Below are positions 32,537 to 41,924 of a stretch of DNA of 64,000 nucleotides, one piece after another. The DNA is from Candidatus Methanomethylicota archaeon. Its GTDB lineage: Archaea; Thermoproteota; Methanomethylicia; Methanomethylicales; Methanomethylicaceae. The stretch lies in assembly GCA_029887765.1 (NCBI GenBank), contig JARXPF010000001.1, forward strand, positions 128,488 to 192,487. The letters run 5' to 3'. The translations under genes were made by a program, and so were the position numbers. Numbering within the stretch: position 1 is the stretch's first letter; every line of letters begins with the position of its first letter. The notes under the pieces are model-generated. The model did not search any database, was not told where the DNA came from, and saw only the letters and a list, made by a program, of their open reading frames with translations.

Positions 32537-33322
32537 CTAAACTCCCTCTGGAAAGCTTTGTAAAATATACGCCAATATTTCATTATGAGTGAGAATGCCT
32601 ATGAATTTTTCATTTTCTACAACTATAACACCTGGAATTTGTTCTTTCTTTAAAATTTTAATTACATCACTTAATGGTGTTTCATTTTCTATAGTTGGGA
32701 CTTTTAATATCATAGCATTGGATATTGAAAATTCCCTAATTTTAGCTCTTTGATGTTTTTCACTTATACGTTTATGAAACTCTATTAAAGAATTCACCAT
32801 TTCTCTTTCTGATATCGCTCCTATTACTTTACCATCATCATTTAAAACAGGAATTATTAATAAATGATTGTCTAGCATTAATCTTCTTGCATGAATTGCT
32901 CTATTGTGAGGATATACCACTGGAATGTCTTTTCGTAATATTAAATTTATAGGAATTATAGAATCTTCAACAAAATACATCATATGACTTCTAAATATAA
33001 TTCCTAGAAAAGTTTCACCATAAAAGACTGGAAGAGAAGGAACTTTTAAATCTAACATTAATTCAGCACATTTTCTAATAGAAGCATCATTTGATAGTGT
33101 TGTAGGAAATTTCTTTAGAAAACCGGAGTTATGCAATGAACCAATAGACAAAATTCTAGATTTTTCTGTACCAATTTTACTTAAAATTTCTCTATAACCT
33201 ATATAACCAATTAATTTTCCATTATCACAAACACATACACTATCAATAGATTTTTTATTCAATATATCTAAAGTTTCTAGTATAGTGCTATCTTTATCAA
33301 TAGTTGGAGGATCTTTCGTCAA
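32537..33322 (-). CDS. Four-CBS-domain protein
   Basis: About 261 residues made of four CBS motifs arranged as two Bateman modules; such modules bind adenosine nucleotides or SAM. Repeats are recognisable by VCDNGKLIGYIGYREIL, VFYGETFLGIIFRSHM, LNDDGKVIGAISEREMV and VVENEKFIGILTHNEIL. The TTG at 33322 clips the first CBS strand. An in-frame ATT at 33340, four bases after GGGAGG, would restore it (see findings). It is third in a run of CBS genes. No enzymatic domain is attached. Confidence 0.87.
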   Translation of the reverse strand: MTKDPPTIDKDSTILETLDILNKKSIDSVCVCDNGKLIGYIGYREILSKIGTEKSRILSIGSLHNSGFLKKFPTTLSNDASIRKCAELMLDLKVPSLPVFYGETFLGIIFRSHMMYFVEDSIIPINLILRKDIPVVYPHNRAIHARRLMLDNHLLIIPVLNDDGKVIGAISEREMVNSLIEFHKRISEKHQRAKIREFSISNAMILKVPTIENETPLSDVIKILKKEQIPGVIVVENEKFIGILTHNEILAYILQSFPEGV

Positions 33323-33330
33323 TATTTTTA

Positions 33331-34176
33331 TTAATCTAATTTTTCCTCCCCCCGAGCTAATACCTTAACAAAATCAAATTTTGTAATAAGTCCACTTAAT
33401 TCTCCTTTACTATTAACAACAGGCATTCCACCTATATTATTATCTATGAGTAATTTAGCAGCCTTACTTGCATCAGTATCTTCTTCTACAACTATTGGAT
33501 TCTCTGTCATTATATCTTCAGCTAAAGGAATGAAATATATTCTATCATAAGATATTTCACCAAGTTCATTTTTTCTTTTCTTGAAAAAACTTTCAGTTTT
33601 TCTTGACGGAGCTATAAAAGATAAGTCAGTTTCAGTAATAATACCTATTGGTTTATTTCCTTCTAAAACTATAACTCTATCAGTATTAAGCTCATCAAGT
33701 AGATTAATTACTCTATAAATACTATGATATTTATGTATTACAGGAAGATTTTCTCTTTGACACATTGATTTAACTGTAAGTTTCTCAGTAAAATTTTCTG
33801 CAAAATATCTTGTAATATCTGTTTTAGTAATTATTCCTACAAGCTCTTCATTACTATCTACTACAGGTAAGCCACGAATATTTTCAGATACCATTTTTTT
33901 AGTAGCAAGAATAATTGAATCATCTTCATTTATTATAGAAACAGGACTCCTCATTACTTCATATACATATATTGAATTAAAATCTCTTAATTGAAATTTT
34001 TGATTTCTTATTTTTCTAATAATATCTTTTCTAGTAATTGTACCTATTGGATGTTTTCCTTCCACAACTACTAAACGACTTATTCCTTCTTTTAACATGA
34101 TATTTCTAACATAAGCTAATGTATCTGATGGTTTGACAACAATAACTGGTGAACTCATATAATCTTTTACTTTCAA
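33331..34176 (-). CDS. Four-CBS-domain protein
   Basis: A 281-residue protein with four CBS domains: MKVKDYMSSPVIVVKPSDT, YVYEVMRSPVSIINEDDS, a third around LTVKSMCQRENLPVIHKY, and IMTENPIVVEEDTDASKA. Each is followed by the usual strand pattern (for example PVVDSNEELVGIITKTDI). No catalytic domain is present. Probably a stand-alone nucleotide or SAM sensor that regulates a partner. It lies 10 bases after the two-CBS zinc-ribbon gene. Confidence 0.9.
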   Translation of the reverse strand: MKVKDYMSSPVIVVKPSDTLAYVRNIMLKEGISRLVVVEGKHPIGTITRKDIIRKIRNQKFQLRDFNSIYVYEVMRSPVSIINEDDSIILATKKMVSENIRGLPVVDSNEELVGIITKTDITRYFAENFTEKLTVKSMCQRENLPVIHKYHSIYRVINLLDELNTDRVIVLEGNKPIGIITETDLSFIAPSRKTESFFKKRKNELGEISYDRIYFIPLAEDIMTENPIVVEEDTDASKAAKLLIDNNIGGMPVVNSKGELSGLITKFDFVKVLARGEEKLD

Positions 34177-34186
34177 TATGAATCAC

Positions 34187-34744
34187 CTATTCACCAAATT
34201 CTGATCTACAATTTTCACATAAAAATTGGCCATTAACTTCTTTAAGAGAATCTGACCATTCTTCACAATTATCACAATAACCAGTCATAGTCTCTAATTC
34301 TTCTCTTTTCATCATAAGTCTTTCTCGAGTAGATTCAATAAGTATTTCAATCATTTCTGGTGCTGCAGAAAGAATATCACTTGCAGTTATTATTCCAACC
34401 ATTTTTCCTTTTTCAACTACTACAAGTCTTCTAATATTAAGAGAAGCCATTTTCTTTGCTGCTTCCATTATTCCAACTCTAGGATCAATAACAAATAATG
34501 GTGATGACATTATATCCTTTGCAAGAACTTTATCTGGATCAAGACCTTTCGCAAGAACTCTTTCAATTAAATCTTTTTCAGTAATTATCCCAACAGGATT
34601 TCCATTAGATACTACTATTACAGATCCAATTTTTTTATTACTCATAGCAATAGCTACATCTCTTGCAGAAGAAGTTTCTGATAAGGTTATAACATCTCTT
34701 GTCATAATATCTCCAACTTTTATTGCTGATTTTATACTTTTCAT
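34187..34744 (-). CDS. Two-CBS-domain protein with C-terminal zinc ribbon
   Basis: A 185-residue protein: CBS 1 (VGDIMTRDVITLSETSSARD), CBS 2 (AKDIMSSPLFVIDPRVGIME), then a helical linker and a rubredoxin-like zinc ribbon (CDNCEEWSD and CENCRSEFGE). CBS-plus-zinc-ribbon proteins are common in archaea; the ribbon may contact nucleic acid or protein. It is the first gene of the minus-strand operon. Its promoter carries an inverted repeat around the TATA box. Confidence 0.9.
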   Translation of the reverse strand: MKSIKSAIKVGDIMTRDVITLSETSSARDVAIAMSNKKIGSVIVVSNGNPVGIITEKDLIERVLAKGLDPDKVLAKDIMSSPLFVIDPRVGIMEAAKKMASLNIRRLVVVEKGKMVGIITASDILSAAPEMIEILIESTRERLMMKREELETMTGYCDNCEEWSDSLKEVNGQFLCENCRSEFGE

Positions 34745-38557: not shown

Positions 38558-39091
38558 ATGAGAATATTACATATGAGCACAATATTAAATGAAGATGATG
38601 TTAAGAAACTTAGAATTGGAGATATTGTTTTTCTTACAGGAACTATATTAACTATGCGTGACATGGCACATGTTAGAGCTCTAAAAATTTTAAGAAATGG
38701 AGAAAAATTGCCATTTGATTTAAAGGATAGAGTAATATATCATTGTGGACCACTTATTAAAAATAATAAAGTAATATCAGCTGGACCTACAACAAGTATG
38801 AGAATGGAATCTTTAGAAGGAGAACTTATAGCAATAACAGGAATAAGAGCAATTATAGGTAAAGGGGGGATGGGAGAAAATACAAGAAGAGCATTAAAGG
38901 AATATGGTGCTGTTTATATGGAATTTCCTGGTGGAGCAGGAGCATTAGCAGCAAAAGCAATTTTAAATATAAAAGGAGTTTATTGGAAAGATCTTGGAGA
39001 GCCTGAAGCTGTATGGATATTAGAAGTTAAAAATTTTGGACCTTGTTTTGTAACTATGGATTCTCAAGGAAATGTACTTAGTTATTTTTGA
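38558..39091 (+). CDS. Fumarate hydratase class I (or tartrate dehydratase), beta subunit
   Basis: C-terminal half of class I fumarase, 177 residues. Motifs: LRIGDIVFLTGTILTMRDMA, the YHCGPLIKNN segment, SAGPTTSMRMESLEGELI, IIGKGGMGENTRRALKEYG and AVYMEFPGGAGALAAKAI. GGTGAT precedes the ATG. Its end overlaps the stop of the AOR-HPS fusion by 10 bp on the opposite strand. Confidence 0.91.
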   Translation: MRILHMSTILNEDDVKKLRIGDIVFLTGTILTMRDMAHVRALKILRNGEKLPFDLKDRVIYHCGPLIKNNKVISAGPTTSMRMESLEGELIAITGIRAIIGKGGMGENTRRALKEYGAVYMEFPGGAGALAAKAILNIKGVYWKDLGEPEAVWILEVKNFGPCFVTMDSQGNVLSYF

Positions 39092-41571
39092 TATTTACTC
39101 CATATAGATCTCGTAGTATTGACAAAAATTCTAGTAGCTTCTTCTGGATTTGCAGATTTAGTAATAGCCCCTCCAACTATCAATATTTTTGCTCCAGCTT
39201 TTATTAATAAAGGAACCACTTCAATTTTTATTCCACCAGCAACAGCTACTGGTATTTTAACTGAATTAACCAATCTCTCTATTAAGGAAAGTTTTTGATC
39301 AATTTCACGTTCTCTTGTTTGAGCACTAATTCCAACATGTAAACATACATAATCTACACCAAGTTTTTCAACTTCTATCGCCCTTGCTATTGGATCTTTT
39401 AAATTCATTAAATCAACCATTACTTTTAACCCATATTTTCTTGCAGCACCTACAGCATCTTTTATAGTATAATCATCTGTAGCACCCATAACAGTTACTA
39501 TATCAGCACCATTTTCTGCAGCTAATTCTGTTTCTAACCATCCAGTATCAAATGTTTTTAAATCAGCTACAATAATAGAATTTGGACATACTCTTCTGAA
39601 TTCTTTTACTACTCTAAGACCTTCTGATTTTATTAAAGGAGTGCCAGCTTCAATTATGTCTGCTCCACCACGATATGCAGCTTCTGCTATAGGAAGAGCG
39701 TCTTTTAAATATCTTTCATCTATTGCAACTTGAATTTTTGGACCATGATAAAGTGGCTCTAAACCCAATTCTAACACCTTCTTTTCTGTTGGAATACCAT
39801 TATAATCCCAACCTCTTACTGCATAATATTCATTTAATAGTATATCTAAATTAATTGTTTCTCCTTTTGCAGGACCATCTGCTAATGGTTCATAAAGTAA
39901 ACGTTTTGGAAGAGTATCATCTTTTCTAGTAAAACCTTCTCTAACATTAAATAGTCGTTCAATATTATAAATTCTCTCACCTATTTTATAGAATTCTTCA
40001 CGATCTACATAAAATCCAGTAGCTGTTGTTAATAAACGTGCATAGAAATCTGGTTCAAATTTTAATGTGGAAAATAAAGCTAAAGTTGTATATTTACATA
40101 ATATTAATGAATCCAATACTGCAAATACATCTTGCATTATTTTTGTAAGAACTGCTTTATTATCATACGAATTTGGATTTAAATATCTTGGAATACTTAA
40201 TATTTCAGGAGCTATCATAAATGCTCTTAAATGACAACCTCCTCTATTTGAAGTAGCATATGAAAGAGCCATTCCCTTGGCTCCTCTTGGATCATATGCT
40301 GGAAGTTCCAAACCCTTAACATGAAAAGCAAATTCCTCTCCTCCTAATATTTCAGAAGCTCGTTTAACACCTTCTGCTAAAATATTTCCAATTCCTTCTC
40401 TAAAAGCAGTCATTTTTATTAATCTATGCAATGCTTCAGTATTACCAAATTTTGCTTCAAAATCTAGATCTTTTATTTTACCACTTTCATAACATGCCAT
40501 AACAAAAGATATAATTTGTCCCATAGAAATTGTATCAATTCCATAAGCATTACACATATGATTAGCAATAGCTATAGCATTTAAATCACTTATTCCACAA
40601 TTTGGTCCAAATGCCCATATGGTTTCATACTCTGGACCTTCAGTTTCTATCTCATTTCCATTATATTTAACCCTAGTAATTCTACCACACATGATAGGAC
40701 AAGCAAAACAACCTTTTTTACTTTTAAGAATAGTTTTTGACATATATTCTCCACTAACTTTTTCAGCATCTTCAAAAACTCCAGATCTATAATTTCTTAC
40801 AGGAAGAATGCCAGCCTTATTTATTATGTGAATAAGTATTGCAGTACCATATCTTCCCATTCCATCACCTGTGATTGGATGACCTTTAATAACTTCAATA
40901 CATTTACGAACTTCTTTCATGAAGGCATAATGATTGGCTATTGGAATTTCTTTTGATCCCTTTACTACTATAGCTTTAAGCTTCTTTGATCCCATTACAG
41001 CACCAACACCACCTCTAGCTGCAGTTCTATGTTTTTCATTCATTATTCCAGCTATTTTAACAAGATTCTCACCAGCAGGACCAATACAAGCCACTCTTGC
41101 AAAAGGATTGCCGACTATTTGTTTTAAACGAGTTTCAGTTTCAAAAACATCATGACCCCATAGATTGCTAGCATCATGAAGCTCAGCTTTTCCATCTAAT
41201 ATTGAAAGATAAACAGGGGTTTCACTAGCACCTTCAAATATTATACCATCAAACCCAGCTCTTTTAAGTTCAACACCGAAATAACCACCTCCATTTGCAT
41301 CAAAAATTGTCCCAGTTAAAGGAGATTTTGTAGAAACTGAATATCTTCCCGAAGTTGGAGCAGGAGTTCCTGTTAAAGGACCAGTCATAAATATTAATTT
41401 ATTTTTTGGACTTAATGGATCTATACCTGCAGGAAGTTCATCAAATAATATTTTTGCACCATAACCTCTTCCACCAATAAAAGATATGGCAATATCCATA
41501 TCCAATTCTTCAATAGATAATTCTTTTGAAGAAAGATCTACTCTGAGAATTTTACCCATATATCCGCCCAT
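39082..41571 (-). CDS. Fusion: aldehyde ferredoxin oxidoreductase + 3-hexulose-6-phosphate synthase
   Basis: An 829-residue, uninterrupted frame joining two complete enzymes. Residues 1 to about 607 are an AOR-family tungstopterin enzyme: GGRGYGAKILFDELPAG, GPLTGTPAPTSGRYSVSTKS, FDANGGGYFG, the [4Fe-4S] cysteines C288-x2-C291-x3-C295 with C492, and the usual AOR ending LNEYYAVRGWDYNGIP. From residue 611 (PKIQVAIDERY) to 829 is an HPS of the OMP-decarboxylase superfamily with the DxKxxD active site (D670, K672, D675 in VADLKTFDTG), TVMGATDDYTIKDAV, LHVGISAQ and AVAGGIK. HPS condenses formaldehyde with ribulose 5-phosphate, or does the reverse. Start ATG follows AGGGG. No isomerase (PHI) is in view. 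Confidence 0.92.
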   Translation of the reverse strand: MGGYMGKILRVDLSSKELSIEELDMDIAISFIGGRGYGAKILFDELPAGIDPLSPKNKLIFMTGPLTGTPAPTSGRYSVSTKSPLTGTIFDANGGGYFGVELKRAGFDGIIFEGASETPVYLSILDGKAELHDASNLWGHDVFETETRLKQIVGNPFARVACIGPAGENLVKIAGIMNEKHRTAARGGVGAVMGSKKLKAIVVKGSKEIPIANHYAFMKEVRKCIEVIKGHPITGDGMGRYGTAILIHIINKAGILPVRNYRSGVFEDAEKVSGEYMSKTILKSKKGCFACPIMCGRITRVKYNGNEIETEGPEYETIWAFGPNCGISDLNAIAIANHMCNAYGIDTISMGQIISFVMACYESGKIKDLDFEAKFGNTEALHRLIKMTAFREGIGNILAEGVKRASEILGGEEFAFHVKGLELPAYDPRGAKGMALSYATSNRGGCHLRAFMIAPEILSIPRYLNPNSYDNKAVLTKIMQDVFAVLDSLILCKYTTLALFSTLKFEPDFYARLLTTATGFYVDREEFYKIGERIYNIERLFNVREGFTRKDDTLPKRLLYEPLADGPAKGETINLDILLNEYYAVRGWDYNGIPTEKKVLELGLEPLYHGPKIQVAIDERYLKDALPIAEAAYRGGADIIEAGTPLIKSEGLRVVKEFRRVCPNSIIVADLKTFDTGWLETELAAENGADIVTVMGATDDYTIKDAVGAARKYGLKVMVDLMNLKDPIARAIEVEKLGVDYVCLHVGISAQTREREIDQKLSLIERLVNSVKIPVAVAGGIKIEVVPLLIKAGAKILIVGGAITKSANPEEATRIFVNTTRSIWSKYQK

Positions 41572-41648: not shown

Positions 41649-41924
41649 ATGAAAGTTAAAATTGAAGTTTTTGCTACATTAAGAGAATTGATAGGCAAAG
41701 AATCATTAGAAATAGAAAATGTAAATAGTGTTAGAGAATTAATTGAATACTTAATAGAAATGTTTGGAATAAAAATCAGGGAGATTTTAATGGAAGGTGA
41801 TAAAAGTAAAGAATTTGTAAAAATTTTAGTAAATGGAAAGGATATAAGAGCTCTTAAAGGAATGGAAACTGAATTAAAAGATGGGGATATAATTTCTATA
41901 TTTCCACCAGTAGCTGGTGGTTAA
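41649..41924 (+). CDS. moaD: MoaD/ThiS-family sulfur carrier
   Basis: A 91-residue beta-grasp protein ending in the diagnostic Gly-Gly (SIFPPVAGG). The N-terminus KVKIEVFATLRELIGKESLE and the LVNGKDIRALKGMETELKDG segment match MoaD. It carries the thiocarboxylate for dithiolene formation in molybdopterin/tungstopterin. It is divergent from the AOR-HPS gene with 77 bp between them, fitting a role in the AOR cofactor. ThiS or a tRNA-thiolation carrier is possible but less favoured. Confidence 0.88.
   Translation: MKVKIEVFATLRELIGKESLEIENVNSVRELIEYLIEMFGIKIREILMEGDKSKEFVKILVNGKDIRALKGMETELKDGDIISIFPPVAGG

Follow-up and report, generated by a model that had tools for sequence, protein, structure and literature searches.

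The question raised by this locus is whether one archaeal polypeptide truly joins an aldehyde oxidoreductase to a hexulose-6-phosphate synthase (HPS) and, if so, what such a protein might do. The window (the whole stretch of DNA that was analysed, 64,000 nucleotides) comes from a metagenome-assembled genome (MAG) of 1.17 Mb and 96.9% completeness. On its reverse strand a single open reading frame of 829 codons starts with ATG, stays open throughout and encodes a complete AOR-type aldehyde:ferredoxin oxidoreductase (AOR) followed by a complete HPS. The features of the locus are as follows.

38558..39091, plus strand: fumarate hydratase beta subunit, convergent with the fusion gene and overlapping it by 10 bp
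39082..41571, minus strand: AOR-HPS fusion gene, 829 aa (open reading frame, Pfam, NCBIfam, orthologues)
39760..41571, minus strand: AOR module, residues 1-604, AFOR_N plus AFOR_C (Pfam, PDB alignment, Foldseek)
39742..39759, minus strand: short linker between the Pfam domain matches, residues 605-610
39082..39741, minus strand: HPS module, residues 611-829, with D670-x-K672-x-x-D675 (RuMP_HxlA, structures 9lj9 and 3ajx)
41649..41924, plus strand: MoaD-family gene, divergent from the fusion (moaD_arch, 85 bits against a cut-off of 49.5)

The fusion gene is monocistronic. The divergent MoaD-family gene adjoins it in every one of the 21 class loci that have sufficient flanking sequence; MoaD is a sulfur carrier for pterin cofactors, and the adjacency fits a pterin-dependent enzyme. 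The fumarate hydratase beta subunit is a flanking synteny marker outside the function of the fusion, and the other nearby genes have housekeeping roles and vary from family to family. Elsewhere in the window, three consecutive genes (32537-34744) resemble CBS-domain proteins and form one family by similarity; their position near the fusion is conserved in relatives.

Pfam places AFOR_N at residues 6-205 (4e-85), AFOR_C at 221-604 (7e-150) and OMPdecase/HUMPS at 611-814 (3e-34), with a linker of fewer than ten residues between the two enzymes. Compared with the stand-alone AORs of the same genome, the fused AOR keeps its natural C-terminus, and HPS starts at about residue 611. The only possible internal starts for a separate HPS near the junction are GTG599 and TTG602. 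An AlphaFold2 model (pTM 0.83, mean pLDDT 81) predicts an ordered junction, with pLDDT of about 87-89. Values fall below 50 at residues 445-462 and 492-505, which lie close to the cofactor in the AOR module; low model confidence near a cofactor site can arise when the cofactor is absent.

The sequence-only reading of this DNA had proposed one frame joining AOR to HPS and had named, among the things that would undo it, a sequencing error or assembly join that fuses two genes. We reject an assembly or frameshift artefact and give it a negligible probability: the identical architecture recurs in 15 named, independent assemblies and in 29 scanned genomes, and purifying selection spans the junction, with dN/dS against the nearest relative of 0.07 in the AOR, 0.07 in the linker and 0.05 in HPS. 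Together with the open reading frame and the Pfam and NCBIfam matches, this recurrence confirms that the fusion is genuine, neither an assembly join nor chance. The fusion is old and under selection.

The taxonomic survey of the architecture that had been proposed with that reading gave a clear distribution. A peptide-pattern scan of genome contigs found the 15 loci in separately assembled MAGs of Methanomethylicota (Verstraetearchaeota), Methanomethyliaceae and Methanosuratincola, 14 of them full-length at 76-91% identity and one interrupted by a contig end. Among 300 Thermoproteota genomes scanned, 29 carry the fusion (that of the window and 28 further; this set partly overlaps the 15 assemblies and includes one genome, G175, interrupted by a contig end and counted through HPS similarity). 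It is present in 17 of the 22 members of the window's own family, in two other families of the class, where the HPS half is 65-67% identical, and in four families elsewhere in Thermoproteota (53-59%). In domain trees built separately, both with long outgroup branches, the fused AORs group in a single clade (94/98), as do the fused HPSs (98/94), which fits a single fusion event. No AOR adjoining HPS as a pre-fusion operon was found in the fetched loci lacking the fusion. The sequence-only reading knew of no described AOR-HPS fusion, and our text searches, with most subscription papers outside their coverage, likewise returned none.

Both halves look catalytically complete. AFOR_N and AFOR_C score 285 and 500 bits against Pfam cut-offs of 29.8 and 27. 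The best solved relative of the fused AOR is the AOR of P. furiosus (1aor; about 623-631 bits, Foldseek TMt of the model 0.93). Against FOR (1b25) the values are 396 bits and TMt 0.89, so closeness to the FOR subgroup was not found, and a FOR-type substrate assignment by sequence is unsupported, AOR being nearer than FOR. The homology to both P. furiosus enzymes is full-length, with the same four cysteine and catalytic Glu/His positions; those enzymes are stand-alone, whereas here HPS follows immediately on the native C-terminal end. The AOR of P. furiosus is a poor oxidant of formaldehyde, which counts against formaldehyde disposal by the fused AOR. The [4Fe-4S] cysteines are Cys288, Cys291, Cys295 and Cys492, and E316 and H447 correspond to E313 and H448 in P. 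furiosus AOR. Three further stand-alone AORs in the genome (L102, L103, L104) share 31-45% identity with the fused one, and each carries this Cys, Glu and His set.

In the HPS half, the match to the NCBIfam model RuMP_HxlA reaches 204.1 bits, above the equivalog-domain cut-off of 200, and divergent fusions score 208.4, 203 and 213.1 bits. The best solved relatives of this part are a bifunctional HPS/PHI (9lj9) and the HPS 3ajx, to which the AlphaFold2 model aligns in Foldseek with TMt 0.91. The DxKxxD metal/substrate motif (D670, K672, D675), the four cysteines and the Glu/His pair were compared across 25 fusions of full or nearly full length. All nine of these catalytic or ligand positions are invariant in 25 of 25, and the positions first read for the cysteines and the DxKxxD site were correct. 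A role of the fusion as orotidine decarboxylase was rejected, a divergent PyrF sitting beside PyrE and PyrD elsewhere in the genome. That PyrF, with only 21 bits to PF00215, adjoins PyrE and a protein of 536 aa resembling a PyrD-PyrK fusion (C3, L106:5729-8689).

The direction in which HPS would work can be approached from the other pathway genes of the genome. The sequence-only reading had singled out a PHI gene, a separate HPS and the loss of oxidative pentose phosphate enzymes as telling. PHI is present, away from the fusion (177 bits against a cut-off of 160). A PF00215 search found no second HPS, the divergent PyrF beside pyrE being the sole other match. In single family searches of this MAG, each of which matched control genomes, neither 6-phosphogluconate dehydrogenase (6PGDH) nor transketolase was detected. 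Ribulose 5-phosphate therefore seemingly comes only from cleavage of hexulose 6-phosphate, nucleotide salvage aside. With cleavage as the evident pentose route, an HPS direction toward ribulose 5-phosphate and formaldehyde is strongly implied. Net formaldehyde assimilation by the fusion is implausible, since a genome with no detectable transketolase could not restore ribulose 5-phosphate as a net RuMP cycle requires; here the earlier suggestion of an alternative role in assimilation did not hold. Its other part, capture of formaldehyde and oxidation to formate, is still the best reading.

Cleavage releases one formaldehyde per turn, and the usual archaeal partner for it is not seen here: family searches detected neither Fae (PF08714) nor Mch in the window's genome or among the 22 family members. 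As the Fae/tetrahydromethanopterin sink is missing from the family, the AOR half would be the natural sink and a plausible substitute for Fae. We consider it probable that the protein is bifunctional, making pentose and disposing of formaldehyde on the spot. PHI would convert fructose 6-phosphate to hexulose 6-phosphate, the HPS half would cleave this to ribulose 5-phosphate and formaldehyde, and the tungsten-type AOR half would oxidise formaldehyde to formate with reduction of ferredoxin. The oxidation would remove a toxic product and pull an otherwise unfavourable cleavage forward. That formaldehyde is the substrate of the AOR half is put forward with moderate confidence; channelling between the two sites and a supply of formate to purines are suggested more weakly.

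The formate would plausibly be consumed by the formate-dependent purine enzyme PurP. The genome has two tandem PurP-family genes (C2, L105:2504-9499), which match the family models but score below the strict cut-offs. The pair clusters with PRPP synthetase, AMP phosphorylase and ribose-1,5-bisphosphate isomerase, a cluster for nucleotide synthesis and pentose-bisphosphate salvage. Family searches for formate sources covered formate dehydrogenase alpha type (the Fdh/Fwd-type subunit) and pyruvate formate-lyase (PFL), and neither was detected in the genome. With PurP present and the tested formate-making enzymes undetected, formate may itself be a needed product. A bolder and rather speculative possibility places the fusion at the centre of an oxidative pentose pathway, linked to ferredoxin, that would give ribose and formate for nucleotides in matched amounts, no other formate source having been detected. 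The overall conversion, equally tentative, would be of fructose 6-phosphate to ribulose 5-phosphate, formate and two reduced ferredoxins. Each nucleotide takes one pentose; formate-derived carbons number two per purine and none per pyrimidine ring, hence about one per average nucleotide.

Natural variation within the family bears on formate supply. Of the genomes in genus g7, which belongs to the window's family, G163 carries the fusion. G090 has neither it nor moaD, with the FumA-FumB and Alba-methyltransferase neighbours intact. About 5 kb from that locus, upstream of pyrG, G090 has, in order, an HPS-like gene, PFL (1151 bits against a cut-off of 994) and PFL activase (258 against 231.75). 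G169, like G090 without the AOR-HPS fusion, carries the same cassette.

L093:7875-11552 (G090) and L094:2150-5821 (G169): HPS-like/PFL/PFL-activase cassette, upstream of pyrG

The HPS-like gene of the cassette scores about 165, short of the HPS cut-off of 200, and G090 also has a stand-alone HPS above that cut-off. PFL was found in none of the 17 fusion-bearing family members (Fisher p = 0.043 for fusion against PFL, with two PFL genomes, both of one genus). A swap of one HPS-linked formate-forming enzyme for another, in this one lineage, fits a role in formate supply. A third genome, G187, was dropped as PFL-positive: its PFL-family protein is without the Cys-Cys pair of the G090 PFL, adjoins an AOR fragment and looks like a different glycyl-radical enzyme. 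In G187 the AOR fragment lies directly upstream of the glycyl-radical enzyme and its activase (L126:3-4140), and this contig may be a contaminant.

Among the 29 fusion genomes, Fae occurs in five, always as a separate short gene, and Mch in seven; none of the 29 combines AOR-HPS with Fae-HPS. Genomes of family f5 have Fae and Mch alongside the fusion, and the case that was scanned adds an HPS-RraA protein. The idea that the fusion occurs only where Fae is absent is weakened by class members that have Fae and Mch, and Fae absence cannot be the general reason for the fusion. Some class members with the fusion also have a second HPS of about 430 aa (L107:7147-8442, L108:7660-8973), of which the former, the one scanned, is bifunctional and of the HPS-RraA (MenG-like) type (662 bits against 593).

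The most serious challenge to formaldehyde disposal concerns the substrate. The AOR half might serve another aldehyde, such as acetaldehyde or glycolaldehyde, and the fusion might provide co-expression or co-localisation, uncoupled from formaldehyde. The fused AOR is closest to the broad-specificity AOR and not to FOR, and the three other AORs of the genome, which point to aldehyde oxidation as a general need, could themselves oxidise formaldehyde. We nevertheless judge this explanation unlikely, because a single ancient fusion has been kept over several classes with both active sites invariant, and its partner HPS has formaldehyde as its sole C1 product, in parallel with the logic of Fae-HPS. 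Alternatively, the protein might be a formaldehyde trap in which forward HPS fixes outside formaldehyde, for example from methanol, and AOR oxidises the rest for detoxification. Forward HPS would use up ribulose 5-phosphate, which here is seemingly made only by reverse HPS, and methyl-reducing methanogenesis is not known to make free formaldehyde. The trap thus seems quite improbable, even though a cultured member of the group lives on methanol (PMC12244365) and similar roles in detoxification have been proposed for the HPS and AOR that Brockarchaeota encode as separate genes (PMC8065059).

We attach still less weight to assimilation of formate, or of CO2-derived formate, by an AOR that reduces it to formaldehyde with low-potential ferredoxin for fixation by HPS. 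AORs are able to reduce acids, and a formate-formaldehyde-RuMP route, by other enzymes, has been proposed for Desulfurococcus (PMC7143981). Against it, no transketolase was detected for ribulose 5-phosphate regeneration, the formate/formaldehyde pair lies at very low potential (PMC7143981), and formate is not an energy source for Methanosuratincola petrocarbonis (PMC12244365).

Pentose synthesis with formaldehyde disposal, the preferred reading, can be set beside several known systems, of which Fae-HPS is the precedent. The Fae-HPS of methanogens and other archaea (for example M. hungatei Mhun1628; M. barkeri) is likewise a single chain in which HPS follows an enzyme that consumes formaldehyde, and it has been proposed to capture formaldehyde from reverse HPS (PMC5241800). 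There the sink is condensation with tetrahydromethanopterin, whereas the proposed sink here is AOR-type, yielding formate and reduced ferredoxin. The N-terminal part here is AOR with no Fae domain, in a family without Fae and Mch, and the fused HPS half clades apart from the four Fae-HPS domains tested. HPS-PHI and HPS-RraA (MenG-like) fusions share the HPS family and DxKxxD site, but have HPS at the N-terminus and an isomerase or RraA-like partner instead of an oxidoreductase. For Culexarchaeia and Brockarchaeota, the available portions of two papers propose separate HPS/PHI and AOR that take RuMP formaldehyde to formate (PMC9723716, PMC8065059); this is the same chemistry as proposed here, but with separate genes and, in those portions, no fusion described and formate assigned to tetrahydrofolate pathways. 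What appears to be new is the fusion of HPS to an AOR-type formaldehyde sink, HPS-to-sink fusion itself being known from Fae-HPS.

Methanosuratincola petrocarbonis, of the same group, is in culture and was grown with selenite-tungstate (PMC12244365), which makes the proposal testable. If true, it would explain how archaea that have neither a pentose phosphate pathway nor C1 chemistry based on tetrahydromethanopterin can make pentoses and escape formaldehyde poisoning, and it would give the origin of purine formate in cells without detected formate dehydrogenase or PFL. It would also offer C1 biotechnology a natural formaldehyde channel of two enzymes and would assign a specific biosynthetic role to an enzyme of the tungsten family.
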